From Burkholderiaceae bacterium (lineage in GTDB: Bacteria; Pseudomonadota; Gammaproteobacteria; Burkholderiales; Burkholderiaceae_C): a stretch of 35,485 bases of DNA. The DNA lies in the NCBI GenBank assembly GCA_004299095.1, contig SCQQ01000063.1, positions 1-35,485 on the forward strand, given 5' to 3'. Positions within the stretch are counted from its first letter, which is position 1. Each line of letters opens with the position of its first letter. Of the stretch, positions 2,075 through 9,606 are shown piece by piece. The notes under the pieces were generated by a model. It made no database searches and had not been told where the DNA came from. It saw only the letters and a program-made list of their open reading frames with translations. The position numbers were made by a program, and so were the translations under genes.

Positions 2075-2832
2075 TCGCGCTCGATGCCATTTGCAAGACC
2101 TTTGGCGCGTTGCAGGTGCTGAAATCAGTGAGCGTGACCATTCCGGATGGTCAGGTGACCGCGCTCATCGGCGCGTCGGGCAGCGGCAAGAGCACGTTGC
2201 TGCGTTGCGTCAACCTGCTTGAAACCCCGGACGCCGGAACGCTCACGGTTGGCGCCGAAGTGCTGAAATTCCGTCCCGGCCAGCCGCCCCGCCACGACGA
2301 TGTGCGCCGCATTCGCGAGCAGACCGGCATGGTGTTCCAGAACTTTCAGTTGTTTCCGCACCTGACCGCCGTGCAGAACGTGATGGAAGGGCTGGTCACC
2401 GTGAAACGCTGGCCGGCCGAGCGAGCGCGCCAGCGGGCGATGGAATTGCTGGACAAAGTGGGGCTGCGCGACAAGGCCGACGTCTGGCCCGGCAACCTGT
2501 CGGGCGGCCAGCAGCAGCGCGTGGCGATTGCGCGCGCGCTGGCGCCCGAGCCGAGCGTGCTGCTGTGCGACGAGCCGACTTCGGCGCTCGACCCAGGGCT
2601 GGCGTCCGAAGTGGTCGCGGTGCTCAGCACGCTGGCGCGCGAAGGCATGACCATGCTCATGGCCACGCACGATTTGCGCCTGGCCGAGCAGGTGGCCACG
2701 CAAACCGTTTTCCTGCAAGACGGCGTGGTGGTCGAATCCGGCCCTTCGCGCGCCCTGTTCGAAGCGCCGCAGGACCCGCGCACGCAGGCGTTCGTAGCCA
2801 CGCTTACGGCGGCGGTGCACATTGGCCCGTGA
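2071..2832 (+). CDS. Amino-acid (probable cystine) ABC transporter ATP-binding protein
   Basis: Cytoplasmic ATPase that powers the importer, 253 residues. Visible motifs are Walker A GASGSGKST (34-42), Q-loop VFQNFQLFPH (about 88-97), signature LSGGQQQR (143-150), Walker B LLCDEPTSALD (164-174) and the H-loop ATHDL with His200. Residues of the GlnQ/HisP/TcyN class surround these motifs. It overlaps the permease by four bases, so the three genes form one operon. The next gene, a sugar deacetylase, starts only about 35 bases downstream on the same strand and may be read through from this operon. Confidence 0.92.
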   Translation: MIALDAICKTFGALQVLKSVSVTIPDGQVTALIGASGSGKSTLLRCVNLLETPDAGTLTVGAEVLKFRPGQPPRHDDVRRIREQTGMVFQNFQLFPHLTAVQNVMEGLVTVKRWPAERARQRAMELLDKVGLRDKADVWPGNLSGGQQQRVAIARALAPEPSVLLCDEPTSALDPGLASEVVAVLSTLAREGMTMLMATHDLRLAEQVATQTVFLQDGVVVESGPSRALFEAPQDPRTQAFVATLTAAVHIGP

Positions 2833-2866
2833 GCCCGCTGACGATCAAGGATTGGCACAACGCCCG

Positions 2867-3739
2867 ATGGATGGCGCGCCCGCGATGATCGGTCCGCAAG
2901 CGCCAACAGGGGGCGCCAAACCGCTGGTGCTGTGCGCCGACGACTATGCCTTCAATGTTGGCGTGAGCCAGGCGATTTGCACGCTCGCGTATCAGTCACG
3001 CCTGACCGCGACCAGCGTCATGGTGCTCTCGCCGCGCTGGCGCGCTGACGCACTTCGACTCGCCGAGCGGCGCGGCCGCCTGGACGTCGGGTTGCACCTC
3101 GACTGGACCAGCCCGTTTGCGCATGCGGCGGGCCATGGCGTGACCTTGCTGGAAGCCATGCGACGCGCGCTGTTTGGCGGCTTCGACACGCAGGTCGCGC
3201 GCGGCGTGATCGAACGCCAGCTCGATCTGTTCGAGGCCGCCTGGGGCGCGCCCCCAGACCACGTCGATGGCCACCAGCACGTGCAGCAATTTGCCGGCAT
3301 TCGGGAAGCGCTGGTCGATGTCTTGGCACGGCGTTATCCCGGTCATCTGCCCTGGCTGCGCATTTCGCGCGCGCCGGCGGGCCAGCGCACGTTCAAGACA
3401 TCCGTGTTGTCGGTTTTGGGCGCGGCGCCGCTCACGCGCTTGGCCTGTGCCGCGGGGATTCCATGCACACCCGCGCTCTCGGGGATTTACGGCTTTGACT
3501 TGAGCGTCGCGGGCTACGGCCGGCAAATGGGGCACTGGCTGCACAGCTCTCCCACGGGTGCCGAGATCATGTGCCATCCGGGCGCGGCCGACAGCTTGGT
3601 CAAAGACGAGATTGCGACGGCGCGATCGCGTGAGCTGGAGTACCTCTCCAGCGCCGCTTTCGGGCAAGCGCTGCAAACCGCGGGCGTGCGCCTCGCGCGC
3701 GGATCGCTGCTCTATGCGCCGCGCGCCGTCAGCGCTTGA
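2867..3739 (+). CDS. ChbG/YdjC-family carbohydrate deacetylase (NaxD/HpnK-like)
   Basis: A 290-residue member of the YdjC polysaccharide-deacetylase-like family, which removes N-acetyl groups from amino sugars using a divalent metal. The metal and catalytic residues are recognisable: CADDYAFN (Asp25-Asp26), GLHLDW (His77), DGHQHVQ (His136 and His138) and CHPG (His237). In Francisella and Bordetella, NaxD-type members deacetylate a lipid-linked N-acetylated sugar before an ArnT-type enzyme transfers it to lipid A. The neighbouring glycosyltransferase and ArnT-like genes suggest the same job here. The start is uncertain: ATG at 2867 or 2885, neither with a strong ribosome binding site. Its 3' end overlaps the convergent gtrA-like gene by 11 bases. 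ChbG (chitooligosaccharide deacetylation) or HpnK (hopanoids) are family alternatives, but no chitin or hopanoid genes are seen. Confidence 0.82.
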   Translation: MDGAPAMIGPQAPTGGAKPLVLCADDYAFNVGVSQAICTLAYQSRLTATSVMVLSPRWRADALRLAERRGRLDVGLHLDWTSPFAHAAGHGVTLLEAMRRALFGGFDTQVARGVIERQLDLFEAAWGAPPDHVDGHQHVQQFAGIREALVDVLARRYPGHLPWLRISRAPAGQRTFKTSVLSVLGAAPLTRLACAAGIPCTPALSGIYGFDLSVAGYGRQMGHWLHSSPTGAEIMCHPGAADSLVKDEIATARSRELEYLSSAAFGQALQTAGVRLARGSLLYAPRAVSA

Positions 3740-4103
3740 ACGCCCAGTAACGGCTCAGCACGAAAGTCTGCCCGGCGGCCGCGATCATGGCGCCCACCAG
3801 CGCCACCCAGACCGGCCAGTGCGCCAGTTCCAGCAGCAGCACGAACACGACCTCGTTGGTGCCAAAACCGGCGAGCGCCGTCGGCAGGAAACGCGCCAGG
3901 CTTTGCCGGATGGTGGTGCGGGTGTCGTGGAAGCTCAGGCGCCGGTGCCCGGTGAAACTCACTAGGAATGCCACACAGAAGCCGACGGCGTTGGCCCAGG
4001 CCGGTGGAATCCACGGCAGCGCCAGGCCAAACACGCCGGCATGTGTGGCCGCGGCTGCGGCGCCCACCACGCCGAACCAGAAGCCGCTCGTGACCAGCTT
4101 CAT
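3729..4103 (-). CDS. GtrA family small membrane protein
   Basis: A 124-residue membrane protein with four predicted helices (about residues 7-25, 34-52, 70-92 and 97-116). The pattern of VGFCVAFLVSF followed by a basic H/R-R loop, and the C-terminal SRYWAFKR, match the GtrA-like family (PF04138). GtrA is thought to flip polyprenyl-phosphate sugars across the inner membrane, although its mechanism is not settled. The ATG overlaps the stop of the upstream glycosyltransferase as ATGA (4100-4103 on the minus strand), so the two are almost certainly co-translated. It would present the lipid-linked sugar made by that enzyme to the periplasmic transferase. The convergent overlap with the deacetylase gene leaves no room for a terminator between them. 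Confidence 0.85.
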   Translation of the reverse strand: MKLVTSGFWFGVVGAAAAATHAGVFGLALPWIPPAWANAVGFCVAFLVSFTGHRRLSFHDTRTTIRQSLARFLPTALAGFGTNEVVFVLLLELAHWPVWVALVGAMIAAAGQTFVLSRYWAFKR

Positions 4104-5104
4104 GGGTGCGAGTGCAGGCCTGAATCGTGTTCGCGCGGCGCCAGGCCGGTGCCGACGCGCCTGGCAATCCAGTACAGCGGCCGGCCCTTGACTTCGTCGT
4201 AAATGCGCGCCACGTACTCGGCCAGCAGGCCGATCGCCAGCAACTGCACACCCGAGAGAAACATGATGCCGGTGACGATGGTGGCGTAGCCGCGCACGCG
4301 CGCGCCCCAGACGAAATGCTCGATCACGACCCAGGCGCCATAGCCGATCGAGACCAGCGCCAACGCCAACCCGATCAAACCGAAGAAGCGCAACGGCGCC
4401 GCCGTGAACGACAGCAGCCCGGTGGCGCCGAATGCCAGCGACGCGCGCCAGCCGAAGTTGCTGTGCCCCGCCACGCGCGCCAGCGGGTCGTATGGAATGG
4501 CCACGCTCTTGAAGCCGGCCCAGGCGTACAGGCCCTTGGTGAAGCGATGGCGCTCGGGCAAGGCGTTCAGGACCTGCACCACGCGCCGGTCGAGCAGGCG
4601 GAAATCGCCCGCATCGGGGGGCACGCGAAAGCGCATGCCCCAGTTGATCAGGCGGTAGAAAACACGCACGCCGAAGGCGTAGAGCCGCGATTGCCCCTGG
4701 CGCGAGCGCACCGCGTAGACGTCGTCGACGCCGTCGTCGCGCCACAGCCGCAACATCTCGTCCACCAGTTCGACCGGATGCTGGCCGTCGGCGTCCATGA
4801 TGACCACCACGTCGCCGTGCGTGGCTTGCAGGCCGGCCGCGAGTGCCGCTTCCTTGCCGAAGTTGCGCGCCAGTTGCAGCAGTACGATTTGCGGGTGGCG
4901 CTGGCACAAGTCGGTCGCGACCACCGCGGTGGCGTCGCTGCTGCCATCGTCGATCAGGATTAATTCCACCCGGGGCGACAACTGCAGCAGGTGTTCCAGC
5001 ACCGCGGGGACGACGCGCGGCAGGCTCTCCGCTTCATTGAAGGCAGGCATCACGCAGGACAGGCTGGGTACCGCCGGACGGGCTGCAGTCATGGGCTCAT
5101 TCAT
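4100..5104 (-). CDS. Family 2 glycosyltransferase, polyprenyl-phosphate sugar synthase (ArnC/GtrB/DPM type)
   Basis: A 334-residue family GT2 enzyme. The N-terminal GT-A domain shows VMPAFNEAESLP (18-29), DDGSSD (52-57), LARNFGKEAAL (78-88) and the metal-binding MDADGQHP with Asp104-Ala-Asp106. RFTKGLYAWAGFK lies in the middle, and two C-terminal membrane helices (about 236-262 and 272-296) tether it to the inner membrane. This is the layout of ArnC, GtrB and dolichol-phosphate mannose synthase-like enzymes, which load a sugar from a nucleotide donor onto undecaprenyl phosphate. With the adjacent deacetylase and ArnT-like gene, the sugar is probably GlcNAc or GalNAc, but the sequence does not decide this. 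The start could be 5104 or the ATG four codons in. It is coupled to the GtrA gene by a four-base overlap. Confidence 0.88.
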   Translation of the reverse strand: MNEPMTAARPAVPSLSCVMPAFNEAESLPRVVPAVLEHLLQLSPRVELILIDDGSSDATAVVATDLCQRHPQIVLLQLARNFGKEAALAAGLQATHGDVVVIMDADGQHPVELVDEMLRLWRDDGVDDVYAVRSRQGQSRLYAFGVRVFYRLINWGMRFRVPPDAGDFRLLDRRVVQVLNALPERHRFTKGLYAWAGFKSVAIPYDPLARVAGHSNFGWRASLAFGATGLLSFTAAPLRFFGLIGLALALVSIGYGAWVVIEHFVWGARVRGYATIVTGIMFLSGVQLLAIGLLAEYVARIYDEVKGRPLYWIARRVGTGLAPREHDSGLHSHP

Positions 5105-5557
5105 GGGATCGCATCATGCCAGCATCAGGTTGTCGGCCGCATCGCGATTCCGAGGAATTCGTGCGCCGCGGGTGAGGTCGTCAGCACTGCGAAAACGCGC
5201 GCGGATGGCCCCGGAATGCCGTCCTGGTGGCGTATCGTCGCGCCCTCGATGCGCCTCTGTCTCTACTCCCTCGGCTGGACGTCTTGGTGGCGTGCGCCCG
5301 CCTGATTTTCACTCTGTCGCACGGCCCGCTGCGCAGCCGACCCCGGCCATGGACTGCCATGTCGGTGTCACCGGTCGGAGATAATTCGAGGGCTTACGTA
5401 CGCGCCGGTTCAGCACTGGGAGGAATGGAACCGGAGCGCTCCGTCTCGCATCCCACAACGGTTCGCGCCGGCGGATTGGCAGCTGATTCGGCGCAGTACC
5501 CTCTCCGAGTAAAAAATGGCGGGCTTGCAGCGCCAGGCCGTCCGAAAGAAGTTGCTC
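5105..5557. other. 453-base divergent intergenic region of the envelope cluster
   Basis: No convincing gene lies here; the open frames have no recognisable composition or start. It should hold the divergent promoters of the glycosyltransferase (minus) and PAP2 (plus) genes. Visible structure: a 12-base perfect palindrome CGGAGCGCTCCG (5432-5443) flanked by TGGGA (5417-5421) and TCCCA (5451-5455), which together can form a hairpin. There is also a 14-base imperfect direct repeat, CGTCCTGGTGGCGT (5220-5233) and CGTCTTGGTGGCGT (5280-5293), exactly 60 bases apart, and ATTCC-GA-GGAAT (5147-5158). GATAAT (5380-5385) could be a -10 element, without a clear -35. Any of these might be regulator sites, but none matches an operator I recognise. 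Confidence 0.5.
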
Positions 5558-6112
5558 ATGAATGGACTTGATCAAACGCTTTTCTTGTGGCTCAACTTGC
5601 CGCAAACGGCGCCGCACTGGGCGGTGAAGCTGGCCGTCTTTGGCGGCACGAGCCTGCTGCCCTTGCTGGTGGCGGCCACGCTCGCGGCCGCCCTGGTGGG
5701 GCGGCAACCGTGGCGGGCGCAGGCTTGGCGCGGGCTGCTCGCCATCGTGCTGGCGTCTGCCGCCACCTGGCTGCTCAAACACGGATTGAACATGCCGCGA
5801 CCGGGTGCGCTCGGCCTGGGTGTGCAGTGGTTGCAGCACAGCCGCATCCAGGGCATGCCCAGTTCGCATGCGGCTGTCGCGGCGGCCTGGGTCGGCGTGG
5901 CGCTCATGCTGCCGGGCGCCAAGCCGTGGCTGCGGGTGCTGTTTCTGGCGGTGGCGCTGTATGTCGGCTGGTGCCGCGTTGCCCTGGGGCTGCATTTCCC
6001 GTTCCAGGTGCTGGCGGGTTGGGTGCTGGGGGTGGTGTGCGCTGGGGTCGCGCAACTGGGTACGGCGGCCTGGGTGCGGCGCTCGGATCAGCGCCTGAGC
6101 GGGCACGAGTGA
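5558..6112 (+). CDS. PAP2-family membrane phosphatase-like protein with altered signature
   Basis: A 184-residue, five- to six-helix membrane protein of the PAP2 superfamily. Signature 1 is intact (KHGLNMPRP, Lys plus six residues then Arg-Pro), and signature 2 is MPSSHA. Signature 3 reads CRVALGLHFPFQ, where the family consensus is Ser-Arg-x5-His-x3-Asp. The Ser is Cys and the final Asp, which normally orients the nucleophilic His, is Gln. Family members dephosphorylate or transfer phosphate on lipid phosphates such as undecaprenyl diphosphate or lipid A. The start is the ATG at 5558, with a purine-rich AAAGAAG just before it; an upstream ATG at 5516 adds residues with no membrane character. 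It ends directly against the ArnT-like gene. It may act on lipid A or undecaprenyl diphosphate, or be catalytically weak. Confidence 0.83.
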   Translation: MNGLDQTLFLWLNLPQTAPHWAVKLAVFGGTSLLPLLVAATLAAALVGRQPWRAQAWRGLLAIVLASAATWLLKHGLNMPRPGALGLGVQWLQHSRIQGMPSSHAAVAAAWVGVALMLPGAKPWLRVLFLAVALYVGWCRVALGLHFPFQVLAGWVLGVVCAGVAQLGTAAWVRRSDQRLSGHE

Positions 6113-7786
6113 ATGGACGATGGCGCTGACGCCAAGACCCTGATTCACCGACGCATCACGATGGCTACTGTTTCTTCAGCGGACGCGCCGCGGACCGGTG
6201 CGCCGCGCCGCTTCTGGCTGTGGTTTGGCCTGCTGGCGACACTGCTGCTGGCGCTCTCGGCCGCACGGCCGCTGTCGGTTCCGGACGAAGGGCGCTACGC
6301 GGATATCAGCCGCTGGATGCTGGTATCGGGCGATTGGCTGGTGCCGCGGCTCGATGGCCTGCCGTTTTTTCACAAGCCGCCGCTCACGCACTGGCTGCAG
6401 GCCATCAGCATGGCGGTGTTCGGCGTCAGCCCCTGGTCCGCGCGCGTGCCGGGGGTGCTGCTCGCGCTGCTGATGGTGGCGGTCGTTTACCGCGTCGTGC
6501 GTGATCTGGGCGGTCGCGCCTTGGCCGGCCGCGCCGCCTTCATGCTCGGCGCCAGCGGCATGGTCCTGATCGGCGCGCAGTACGTCAACCACGATATCGG
6601 CGTGGCGGCGTGGATCACGGTCGCCATCGCCTGCTTCGCACGCTCGTTTGCCGAGGAGTTCCGGCCGCATGCCGGCTGGGCTTGCGCGGGGTTCCTGGCA
6701 TGCGCCCTGGGGCTGCTCACCAAGGGGCTGATCGGCGTCGCGCTGCCGGGCTTGGCGCTGTTCATTTGGGTCACCTGGACGCACCAGTGGCGCAAGGTCT
6801 GGCGCTTGCCCTGGGGCCGCGGCCTGGCGCTTTTCGTCGTGGTGGCTGTGCCGTGGTTCGTCCTGATCGCCTGGCGCTTCCGGGGCGCGTTCGAATACCT
6901 GTTTGGCGTGCAGCAGTTCGATCGCTACATCGACACCGGCTTCAACAATCGGCAGCCCTGGTGGTTCTTTCTGGCTGCGGTCGCACTGCTGCTGGCGCCC
7001 TGGATCGTTTTCGCCGTGCTGGAAGCGGCTGGGCAGATTCGTGAACGCTGGACGCGCGTGCGGCGCACGCCGTCCAACCGCTGGGTGGCGCTGTGCTGGA
7101 TCTGGTTCATCGCCATCCTGGTGTTTTTCAGCATCCCGCGCTCCAAGCTCATCGGCTACATCTTTCCGGCGATACCGCCGCTGGCCATTCTTGCCGCGCT
7201 TGGCTGGCAGCGCACCATGGCGGGGCGGCCGCGCGCCGTGCTGTGGTTTGGCGTGCTGGCCGCAATTCCCATCGTTCTTTCAACGGCGCTGACGCTGGGT
7301 TTTCCGTACATCGATCGCCAGCCGGTGGCGCGCGACGTGGGTCTCGAGCTGCGTTGCCGGCTTGCGCCCAGCGACGTGGTGCTGGTCACCGGCGGTTATC
7401 CGTTCGACTTGCCGTTCGTGGCGCGCACGCGCAAGCCGCTGGTGGTGCTGGACGATTGGCCGCAGTTGCGCAAGACCGAGCATGACACCTGGCGCCGCGA
7501 GCTGTTCGAGGCGGGCGATTTCCAGCCGGGGTTGGCTTCGGAAGTGCTGCGCTCACCCGATCTGGTGCAGAAGGACGCGCATGCGCCGGGCTACTGGCTG
7601 GTGCAGCGTGCCGACAAGGGCGCGCAGAATATTCCCGCGCCCGCCGGCTGGAATCTGGTGTTTCAGGGGCGCGCTTGGCGGTTGTTCCGGTCTACACCCG
7701 CAGAGGGAACGGCTGAGCCCGTTGCCGGGGCACCGAAGCGCGGCTGTTCGGAGGCCGCGAGCGCGCACGCAAAGACAAACGGATGA
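6113..7786 (+). CDS. ArnT-like GT39/GT83 membrane glycosyltransferase
   Basis: A 557-residue polytopic membrane protein of the ArnT/PMT class. These enzymes take a sugar from undecaprenyl phosphate on the periplasmic side and add it to an acceptor; ArnT adds aminoarabinose to lipid A phosphates. After the first helix (about 33-51) comes VPDEGRYADISRWML (56-70), corresponding to the acidic DE-R-Y-A motif of the first periplasmic loop. It is followed by DWLVPRLDGLPFFHKPPL, the second conserved loop of the family. About 11-12 helices occupy residues 33-420, with a soluble C-terminal domain after that. The length is close to ArnT (about 550). It abuts the PAP2 stop with no gap; an ATG at 6161 is an alternative start. 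No arnA/B/D genes are nearby, so the sugar is unlikely to be aminoarabinose made locally. Confidence 0.85.
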   Translation: MDDGADAKTLIHRRITMATVSSADAPRTGAPRRFWLWFGLLATLLLALSAARPLSVPDEGRYADISRWMLVSGDWLVPRLDGLPFFHKPPLTHWLQAISMAVFGVSPWSARVPGVLLALLMVAVVYRVVRDLGGRALAGRAAFMLGASGMVLIGAQYVNHDIGVAAWITVAIACFARSFAEEFRPHAGWACAGFLACALGLLTKGLIGVALPGLALFIWVTWTHQWRKVWRLPWGRGLALFVVVAVPWFVLIAWRFRGAFEYLFGVQQFDRYIDTGFNNRQPWWFFLAAVALLLAPWIVFAVLEAAGQIRERWTRVRRTPSNRWVALCWIWFIAILVFFSIPRSKLIGYIFPAIPPLAILAALGWQRTMAGRPRAVLWFGVLAAIPIVLSTALTLGFPYIDRQPVARDVGLELRCRLAPSDVVLVTGGYPFDLPFVARTRKPLVVLDDWPQLRKTEHDTWRRELFEAGDFQPGLASEVLRSPDLVQKDAHAPGYWLVQRADKGAQNIPAPAGWNLVFQGRAWRLFRSTPAEGTAEPVAGAPKRGCSEAASAHAKTNG

Positions 7787-7932
7787 CTGAACCAACACCA
7801 GGCCAGGACCGAGCGGCGCCGCTTGCCGATGGCGTTCGAAACCACCCCACGGCGCGGCCGCGTGCGTGGGTACGTTCAGTTGGCCGGCATGACCCCCAAG
7901 GGTTTTGAATGCGCTCCCTAGAATTGCGCCCC

Positions 7933-9606
7933 ATGGTTTCCGTCAAGACAGAGCTGTTGGCCGCGCTGGCTGCCGAACTGGAGAAGCTGGCGCCGGGCGT
8001 GGGCGCGCCGGCCGCTTTTGAATTACCCAAGCAGACGGGGCATGGCGACCTGGCCTGCACCGCAGCCTTGCAGTTGGCGCGCACGCTCAAAGCCAAGCCG
8101 CGCGACATCGCCGAGCGCCTGCGCGCTGCCTTGCTGGCGACCCCCGCGTTCGAACGCTGGGTGGCCGCGATCGAAATTGCCGGGCCCGGCTTCCTGAATC
8201 TGCAACTGAAGCCTGCAGCAAAGCAGCAGGTGGTGCACGCGGTGCTGTCCGAGGGCGAGCGCTTTGGCGCACAACCGGATCGCGGCCAGCGCATCATCGT
8301 TGAATTCGTGAGTGCCAACCCCACCGGGCCGCTGCACGTCGGCCATGGCCGGCAGGGTGCGCTCGGCGACGCTATCTGCAACCTGCTCGCGACGCAGGGC
8401 TGGCAGGTGCACCGCGAGTTCTATTACAACGACGCCGGCGTGCAGATCGATACGCTCGCGCACTCGGTGCAACTGCGCGCGCAGGGCGTCAAGCCGGGCG
8501 ATGCCGGCTGGCCCGAAGCAGCCTACAACGGCGATTACATCCAGGACATCGCCGACGACTTTCTGGCGCGCAAGAGCGTCAAGTCGGGCGATCGCGAATA
8601 CACCGCGAGCGGGAATGCGGCCGATCTCGACGGCATTCGCCAGTTTGCCGTGGCCTATCTGCGCCGCGAGCAGGACGAGGACTTGCGCGCATTCGGCGTG
8701 CGCTTCGACCAGTTCTATCTGGAGTCCAGCCTGTACCGCGATGGGCGCGTCCAGGCCGCGGTCGACCGCTTGGTCGCAGGCGGCAAGACCTACACAAAGG
8801 ACGGTGCCCTGTGGCTGCGCACCACCGACTATGGCGACGACAAGGATCGCGTCATGCGCAAGAGCGACGGCCACTACACCTATTTCGTGCCCGACGTGGC
8901 CTATCACGTGACCAAGTGGGAGCGCGGCTACCACAATGCGGTCAACATCCAGGGTACGGACCACCACGGCACCATCGCGCGCGTGCGCGCCGGCTTGCAG
9001 GCGATGGGCGCCGGCATTCCCAAGGGCTACCCCGACTACGTGCTGCACACCATGGTGCGCGTGGTGCGCGGCGGGCAGGAAGTCAAGATCAGCAAGCGCG
9101 CCGGCAGCTATGTGACGTTGCGCGACCTGATCGAATGGACCAGCGCGGACGCGGTGCGTTTCTTTTTGCTGTCGCGTAAACCGGACACCGAATACACCTT
9201 CGATGTCGACCTCGCCATCCAGAAAAACAACGATAATCCGGTGTATTACGTGCAGTACGCGCACGCACGCATTTGCTCGGTGCTGCACGCGTGGGGCGGT
9301 GACATGCAGACCTTGAAGAACGCGGATTTCGCGCCGCTGGATACACCGGCCGCGCAGGCGCTGATGCTGAAGCTGTCGGCCTATCCGGGCGTGCTGGCTG
9401 CGGCGGCGACCGACTTCGCTCCCCATGACATCACGTTTTACTTGCGCGAATTGGCGGCGGACTATCACCGTTACTACGACGCGGAGCGCATTCTGGTGGA
9501 TGACGTCGCGGTCAAAACGGCGCGCGTCGCCCTGGCGGCCGCGGTGGCGCAGGTATTGCGCAGCGGTTTGACGGTGTTGGGCGTATCGGCGCCCGCAAAG
9601 ATGTGA
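7933..9606 (+). CDS. argS: Arginyl-tRNA synthetase
   Basis: Class I aminoacyl-tRNA synthetase charging tRNA-Arg, 557 residues. The N-terminal additional domain (about 1-115) leads to [21 protein letters not shown], with the HIGH motif as HVGH (135-138). Further on are [12 protein letters not shown] and the degenerate KMSKS counterpart KISKR (385-389). The C-terminal DALR domain ends in [13 protein letters not shown], typical for bacterial ArgS. I chose the ATG at 7933 (MVSVKTELL) over an in-frame ATG at 7909 because homologues begin near this residue; the ribosome binding site is not decisive. The next gene starts only a base after the stop region, so argS, the SPOR gene and dsbA form the usual Burkholderiales block. 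Confidence 0.96.

Follow-up and report, generated by a model that had tools for sequence, protein, structure and literature searches.

The DNA examined here, termed the window, is a whole contig of 35,485 nucleotides (C52) from the 3.14 Mb, 122-contig assembly of a Burkholderiaceae bacterium. Near one end it contains five complete genes, identified from open reading frames and Pfam matches, which probably form a locus for the addition of hexosamine to the phosphates of lipid A. The Pfam scores of all five proteins exceed the cut-offs.

2885–3739, + strand: YdjC/NaxD-type deacetylase (284 residues; PF04794, 149 bits)
3729–4103, − strand: GtrA-type small membrane protein (124 residues; PF04138, 74 bits)
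4100–5104, − strand: GtrB-type polyprenyl-phosphate sugar synthase (334 residues; Pfam GT2, 101 bits)
5558–6112, + strand: PAP2 protein with an altered third motif (184 residues; PF01569, 60 bits)
6161–7786, + strand: transferase with the ArnT (GT-C) fold, His-type (541 residues; PF02366 (PMT), 80 bits)

A preliminary description of this DNA had listed the five genes with their motifs and noted the tight coupling of the synthase with GtrA and of PAP2 with the ArnT-like gene. Both points hold: the GtrB and GtrA genes overlap by 4 bases, and the gap between PAP2 and ArnT is 48 or 0 bases, depending on whether the start listed above or an alternative ATG at 6113 is chosen. The locus had been placed from position 2867; the deacetylase begins at about 2885 instead. 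As described, the deacetylase gene is opposed to GtrB and GtrA, the latter of which it overlaps tail to tail by 11 bases, but it lies on the same strand as the PAP2–ArnT pair. Gene geometry is the whole basis of the proposed division into three transcripts; a scan of positions 2500–8100 gave no match to a sigma-70-like promoter, and the nine terminator-like hits in the same interval compare with 4.9 (standard deviation 2.6) in shuffled sequences.

The predicted structure of the ArnT-like protein (mean predicted local distance difference test score, pLDDT, 83.5) is most similar to that of the Cupriavidus ArnT (CmArnT, 5f15), with a Z-score of 39.4 and a root-mean-square deviation of 2.8 over 464 residues. 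The next family reaches a Z-score of 26.7, and the structure comparison thus bears out the kinship with ArnT proposed earlier. Eight residues of CmArnT are named in PMC8306577 (this and the other articles cited are drawn on in excerpt). Seven of them, D55, R58, K85, D158, K203, R270, and Y345, are kept as D42, R45, K72, D145, K188, R255, and Y333 of the window transferase, and the residues that orient the phosphate are preserved. The eighth, Glu84, is replaced by His71, and the window reads FFHKP in place of YFEKP, the motif of ArnT enzymes specific for aminoarabinose (PMC5377068). The nearest named relatives of the transferase are from Burkholderiales, mostly Comamonas and other Comamonadaceae.

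The residue at the position of Glu84 was surveyed in 150 genomes of the family of the window bacterium (the Comamonas family). The 81 ArnT-like hits with DNA (13 hits without DNA and short fragments were excluded) have histidine in 39 cases, glutamate in 14, alanine or glycine in 16, aspartate in nine, and another or a missing residue in three. A YdjC gene is located within 10 kb of 29 of the 39 His-type copies, with the window counted, and of 7 of the 16 Ala/Gly-type copies, but of none of the 14 Glu-type and nine Asp-type copies. By contrast, the Glu-type loci contain ArnB in 13 of 14 cases and an arn-type formyltransferase in 12 of 14 (two query loci counted), neither of which is present at 28 His-type loci, at the Gln-type locus on contig C5 of the same genome, or in the window. 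The Fisher value of these counts, 8e-7, is uncorrected for relatedness and indicative at most. The residue split is free of pattern bias in this unnamed family set alone, because the named loci discussed below are the best 80 of 86 obtained with search patterns that demanded histidine or glutamine at the Glu84 site. Histidine as opposed to glutamate at this position may separate hexosamine-type from aminoarabinose-type ArnT proteins; LgmB and FlmK lie outside the comparison. The difference could provide a sequence test for the sugar class of ArnT proteins in genomes. Ala/Gly-type copies, 14 of 16 of which also carry threonine at the position of Asp55, represent a third class, which lies beside YdjC in seven family genomes (L128, L281, L270, L273, L274, L279, and L280).

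The sugar is probably not aminoarabinose, because His-type copies often lie beside YdjC, and Glu-type copies never do but are found beside ArnB. The earlier remark that arnA, arnB, and arnD are absent can be extended to the whole assembly for two of the enzymes: there is no match above the cut-off for ArnB (best 219 bits, cut-off 631) or for the arn-type formyltransferase (model NF005414, PRK06988; best 127 bits, cut-off 316), with ArnD not searched for. The formyltransferase from an arn cluster of the family passes the NF005414 cut-off with 443 bits, and an ArnB query from such a cluster is best matched by the ArnB model with 337 bits, which is below the cut-off. The split at Glu84 together with the genome-wide lack of both enzymes above the cut-offs favors hexosamine over aminoarabinose. 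That the locus is an aminoarabinose system with arn genes elsewhere in the genome is extremely improbable: the transferase is an ArnT-family protein (176 bits with the NCBIfam ArnT model, which has a cut-off of 567), but neither ArnB nor the formyltransferase is found at the required scores, and histidine replaces the glutamate of YFEKP that is characteristic of the copies from arn clusters. The hexosamine may be either glucosamine or galactosamine. A DegT-type aminotransferase that reaches 219 bits with the ArnB model, below its cut-off, lies about 5 kb from a GtrB-like synthase (27% identity) in another part of the window genome (G000:C38, 27329–34679).

The YdjC protein aligns with a solved chitooligosaccharide deacetylase (E-value 6e-6) and contains the motifs of its family, ADD, GLH, DGHQHV, and CHPG. 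It is expected to act on carrier-linked N-acetylhexosamine. ChbG and HpnK were rejected as its identity, with 61 and 47 bits against equivalog cut-offs of 227 and 233. The small membrane protein GtrA is presumably a flippase. GtrB is closer to the GtrB of Synechocystis (sll0501, 5ekp), which it matches with 254 bits in phmmer, than to ArnC structures, with 117–120 bits. The YdjC-family deacetylase and the GtrB/ArnC-type synthase expected of a naxD- or lgm-type locus are both present. A locus of this type, putting hexosamine on lipid A phosphates, is the best explanation of the gene set and a probable one. GtrB would load undecaprenyl phosphate with N-acetylhexosamine, and YdjC would deacetylate the carrier-linked sugar to a positively charged hexosamine. 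GtrA would assist its passage across the membrane, and in the periplasm the ArnT-like enzyme would attach it to a phosphate of lipid A. Each of these steps, the acceptor, and the sugar (glucosamine or galactosamine) are predictions from gene identities, the ArnT fold, synteny, phylogeny, and the residue pattern.

The layout of the locus was compared with 18 family regions, which were obtained from 20 by leaving out two with ArnT but without YdjC (C5 of the window genome and G214:C4). Twelve regions (two of them when the opposite strand is read) have the order YdjC> ArnT> <GtrA <GtrB, where the arrowheads give the direction of the genes, and a thirteenth (G239) has the same order with about 5 kb inserted. 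The regions of G263, G150, and G180 are without ArnT, that of G211 is without ArnT and GtrA, and that of G190 has a different order with PAP2. The gene argS adjoins the locus in 11 of the 18 regions. The 80 named loci, which were found through ArnT, include 28 with the block of four genes, one of which has an additional ArnT-like piece, and five with the block without a GtrA hit. A further 24 have the order YdjC> GtrB> (GtrA>) ArnT> and come from Acinetobacter (21), metagenome-assembled genomes (MAGs) of Moraxellaceae (two), and a gammaproteobacterial MAG (one). The remainder are 18 loci with ArnT alone and five other or cut arrangements. Carriers of the block include Comamonas (among them Comamonas badia DSM 17552, L189), Acidovorax, and Limnohabitans; a further MAG labelled Gammaproteobacteria (L171) has the Comamonadaceae block. 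The family regions and named loci overlap (for example, L151 and L155 are G214, L150 and L152 are G270), and the counts are not independent. YdjC is present in 55 of the 150 family genomes. Within 10 kb of it, GtrB is found in 49 of the 55 and an ArnT-like gene, whatever its type, in 38.

The window shares with the Comamonadaceae block the neighborhood of argS and the opposed strands, and its YdjC, GtrA, and GtrB are about 45–65% identical to those of the block. However, it is without the middle ArnT and has PAP2 and an ArnT of another type, described below, between GtrB and argS. Because the block is common to relatives, the opposed strands of the window locus are inherited, not new. The gene-neighborhood search thus supports the recurrence of the gene set, in relatives and in Acinetobacter, but not the two features put forward as novel: the split with the deacetylase on the opposite strand is the family norm, and the PAP2 gene is outside the conserved set and altered in its third motif.

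In a tree of 27 ArnT proteins, the window copy groups with those of G270:C23, C5 of its own genome, and G214:C4 (support 97/95), which are all located outside the block, and is separate from the copies that G270, G278, G134, and Comamonas carry in the block. The G270:C23 copy belongs to an island in which the following genes stand one after another: PAP2, outer-membrane factor, RND pump, DUF347 protein, ArnT, 144-residue protein, DedA-like protein (VTT domain), response-regulator-like open reading frame, and histidine kinase. The regulator was called without Pfam, and no membrane fusion protein was recognized in this island. G214:C4 contains a pump, regulator, kinase, and ArnT, and C5 contains genes for a pump, fusion protein, outer-membrane factor, 144-residue protein, and ArnT, with a PAP2 remnant (residues 1–56, 41% identity) just upstream. 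The PAP2 of the G270 island is 58% identical to that of the window. Orthologues of the DUF347, DedA, regulator, and kinase genes are located on another contig of the window genome, C113. The arnT-lpxE-eptA genes beside raxRH in Xanthomonas resemble the island in that PAP2 and ArnT are found close to a two-component system (PMC8306577), whereas the window pair is not next to one.

The loss of the block ArnT appears to recur in the genus. G263, from the same genus, retains a remnant of ArnT at the ancestral spot. With the G134 query this remnant reaches 28.1 bits, whereas the best of 1000 shuffles reaches 24.6. ArnT and GtrA are missing from the locus in G274 and G292, which have distant ArnT-like hits elsewhere at most. 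It can be inferred that the PAP2–ArnT pair arrived by replacement: the block's own transferase would have been lost, and a pair related to the copies from islands with an RND pump and a two-component system would have been placed upstream of argS. The locus would then be an example of the exchange of a transferase between two settings in the genome.

The same YdjC, GtrB, and His-type ArnT form the naxD operon of Acinetobacter in all 24 such loci (23 from Acinetobacter or Moraxellaceae and one gammaproteobacterial MAG), with GtrA in 19 of them; the proteins are 27–45% identical to those of the window. The Acinetobacter genes constitute one operon, YdjC> GtrB> GtrA> ArnT>, whereas those of the window are in three groups on two strands and are joined by PAP2. 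Furthermore, the Acinetobacter operon is controlled by PmrAB, whereas no PmrA-type box was found upstream of PAP2 or YdjC in the window, where the scan gave two matches with two mismatches against 2.78 expected. In A. baumannii, NaxD has been tied to galactosamine on lipid A (PMC12330716, PMC6635527), and the galactosamine transferase was called unidentified or unknown in the excerpts of papers from 2022 and 2025 (PMC9431647, PMC12330716). Because the gene set is shared, the His-type ArnT-like gene at the end of the naxD operon (L203, L205–L221, L223, L224, L226–L229) is a candidate for this transferase. In the naxD operon of Acinetobacter colistiniresistens, the GtrB match is divided into two parts with about 1.3 kb between them, as it would be in an interrupted gene (L228, 3248–5459).

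The window locus is a system of a known kind, represented by Francisella Flm/NaxD, Bordetella Lgm, and Acinetobacter naxD, that has been locally rearranged. NaxD takes part in the FlmF2–NaxD–FlmK system of Francisella. There, FlmF2 makes carrier-linked galactosamine and FlmK moves it to the 1-phosphate of lipid A (PMC8306577, PMC6581854); the role of NaxD is also given by a citation in PMC9431647. In the lgmA–D system of Bordetella, the ArnT-family enzyme LgmB adds glucosamine to lipid A phosphates (PMC11895810, PMC8168481). Both systems are likened to the window locus by description, and no Bordetella or Francisella locus is among the named loci returned. What remains of the earlier hexosamine proposal is a gene set equal to the Acinetobacter naxD operon and a sugar that is probably not aminoarabinose, without the new layout and without PAP2 as a member. 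The family block, the His/Glu split, and a named Acinetobacter transferase were not seen in the literature searched, from which subscription papers were mostly absent, and this is weak evidence of novelty.

Pairs of GtrA and GtrB are best known from O-antigen glucosylation, and the GtrB–GtrA–YdjC set could produce an amino sugar on a carrier that is destined for an acceptor other than lipid A phosphate, such as O-antigen, lipopolysaccharide core, or a surface protein, with the ArnT-fold enzyme as the transferase of that pathway. The affinity of GtrB to the Synechocystis protein rather than to ArnC and the occurrence of the GT-C fold in protein O-mannosyltransferases are consistent with this alternative. 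So are five family genomes, each at least 99% complete (G123, G150, G191, G207, and G263), in which YdjC and GtrB are retained but no ArnT match occurs. Nevertheless, another acceptor is unlikely, since the model fits CmArnT far better than protein O-mannosyltransferases or oligosaccharyltransferases (Z-scores of at most 26.7), the phosphate-orienting residues are conserved, and the gene set is that of the Acinetobacter naxD operon.

The assignment to lipid A hexosamine has to be weighed against several opposing points. Because of the five near-complete genomes, YdjC and GtrB may be in decay or work with a different transferase. Linkage to YdjC is not peculiar to the His-type, as 7 of the 16 Ala/Gly-type copies are linked and 10 of the 39 His-type copies are not. 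Data on the lipid A of this genus did not turn up in the literature search. The junction of PAP2 and ArnT is known from one contig alone of the 122-contig assembly, and with the window ArnT as the query the G263 remnant scores 21.9 bits against 22.3 for the best shuffle; the nearer G134 query alone exceeded the shuffles. According to the excerpts, galactosamine was undetected in one set of resistant A. baumannii strains (PMC9431647), expression of naxD was insufficient for colistin resistance (PMC6635527), and the weight of galactosamine in the resistance of this species is disputed (PMC9431647, PMC6635527, PMC12330716). A role of the window locus in resistance is doubtful even if the proposed chemistry is right.

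The PAP2 protein may be inactive. Its first and second motifs are present as KHGLNMPRP (K-x6-RP) and PSSH (PSxH), whereas the third reads C-R-x5-H-x3-Q in place of the R-x5-H-x3-D expected of active PAP2 phosphatases such as LpxE and UppP. PAP2 matches occur in 57 of the 150 family genomes, and all 11 homologues in which the residue was read have aspartate at the position of the glutamine. The copy from G270 leaves the frame in the third motif, possibly through an assembly error. A single-sequence model of PAP2 (pLDDT 59.9) was too poor for a structure search. A PAP2 gene is located within 3 kb of His- or Gln-type ArnT in the window, C5 (the remnant), G159:C276, and G190, whereas all 14 Glu-type copies lack one, in a survey in which many loci have flanks of 1.5 kb and a more distant PAP2 would be missed. 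The protein is probably a passenger of the pair, its phosphatase activity reduced or absent. A separate PAP2–ArnT pairing occurs at L264, L267, L268, L271, L278, and L283, where Asp-type ArnT-like genes that have no YdjC are found at most about 2 kb from PAP2-domain open reading frames.

Transfer of a sugar from a carrier monophosphate releases the monophosphate, and a phosphatase is unnecessary. PAP2 could nonetheless be an active enzyme, either a 1-phosphatase of lipid A resembling LpxE or a phosphatase that acts on the carrier pyrophosphate and so feeds the pathway. The best match is LpxE (6ebu, 40 bits) among solved structures and a YbjG-type undecaprenyl-diphosphate phosphatase among NCBIfam models; both matches point in this direction, although they are weak. 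The arrangement of arnT, lpxE, and eptA in Xanthomonas provides a precedent (PMC8306577), and LpxE also works on the C55 diphosphate carrier (PMC6581854). An active PAP2 is unlikely, however, given the glutamine at a position where the homologues examined keep aspartate, the reduction of the C5 copy to a remnant, the broken frame of the G270 copy, and a transfer reaction that requires no phosphatase. Because LpxT interacts with ArnT in Pseudomonas (PMC13142001), a bolder alternative is that PAP2, which abuts ArnT here and is without the aspartate of the third motif, serves as its non-catalytic partner. Such binding is purely hypothetical and very unlikely, and the broken copies of C5 and G270 suit a passenger better. 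A combined account is quite unlikely as a whole. In it, histidine or glutamate at the carrier-phosphate site of ArnT (Glu84 of CmArnT) would mark the sugar as hexosamine or aminoarabinose, ArnT genes would be swapped between an inducible stress island and the conserved naxD block, and a dead PAP2 would be an ArnT subunit like LpxT in Pseudomonas.

The locus is flanked by the following genes.

17–466: c17, upstream gene
551–2832, + strand: ABC amino-acid transporter genes, between c17 and YdjC and outside the system
7909–9606, + strand: argS, conserved neighbor of the locus

The trio of amino-acid ABC transporter genes parts c17 from YdjC in the window, and the two are adjacent in G270, G290, G278, and G285. 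In MAGs of Simplicispira (L195, 6001–8769) and Giesbergeria (L222, 675–3177), ArnT is located directly before argS with no GtrA or GtrB between them, and the Simplicispira copy groups with the block copies of Acidovorax.

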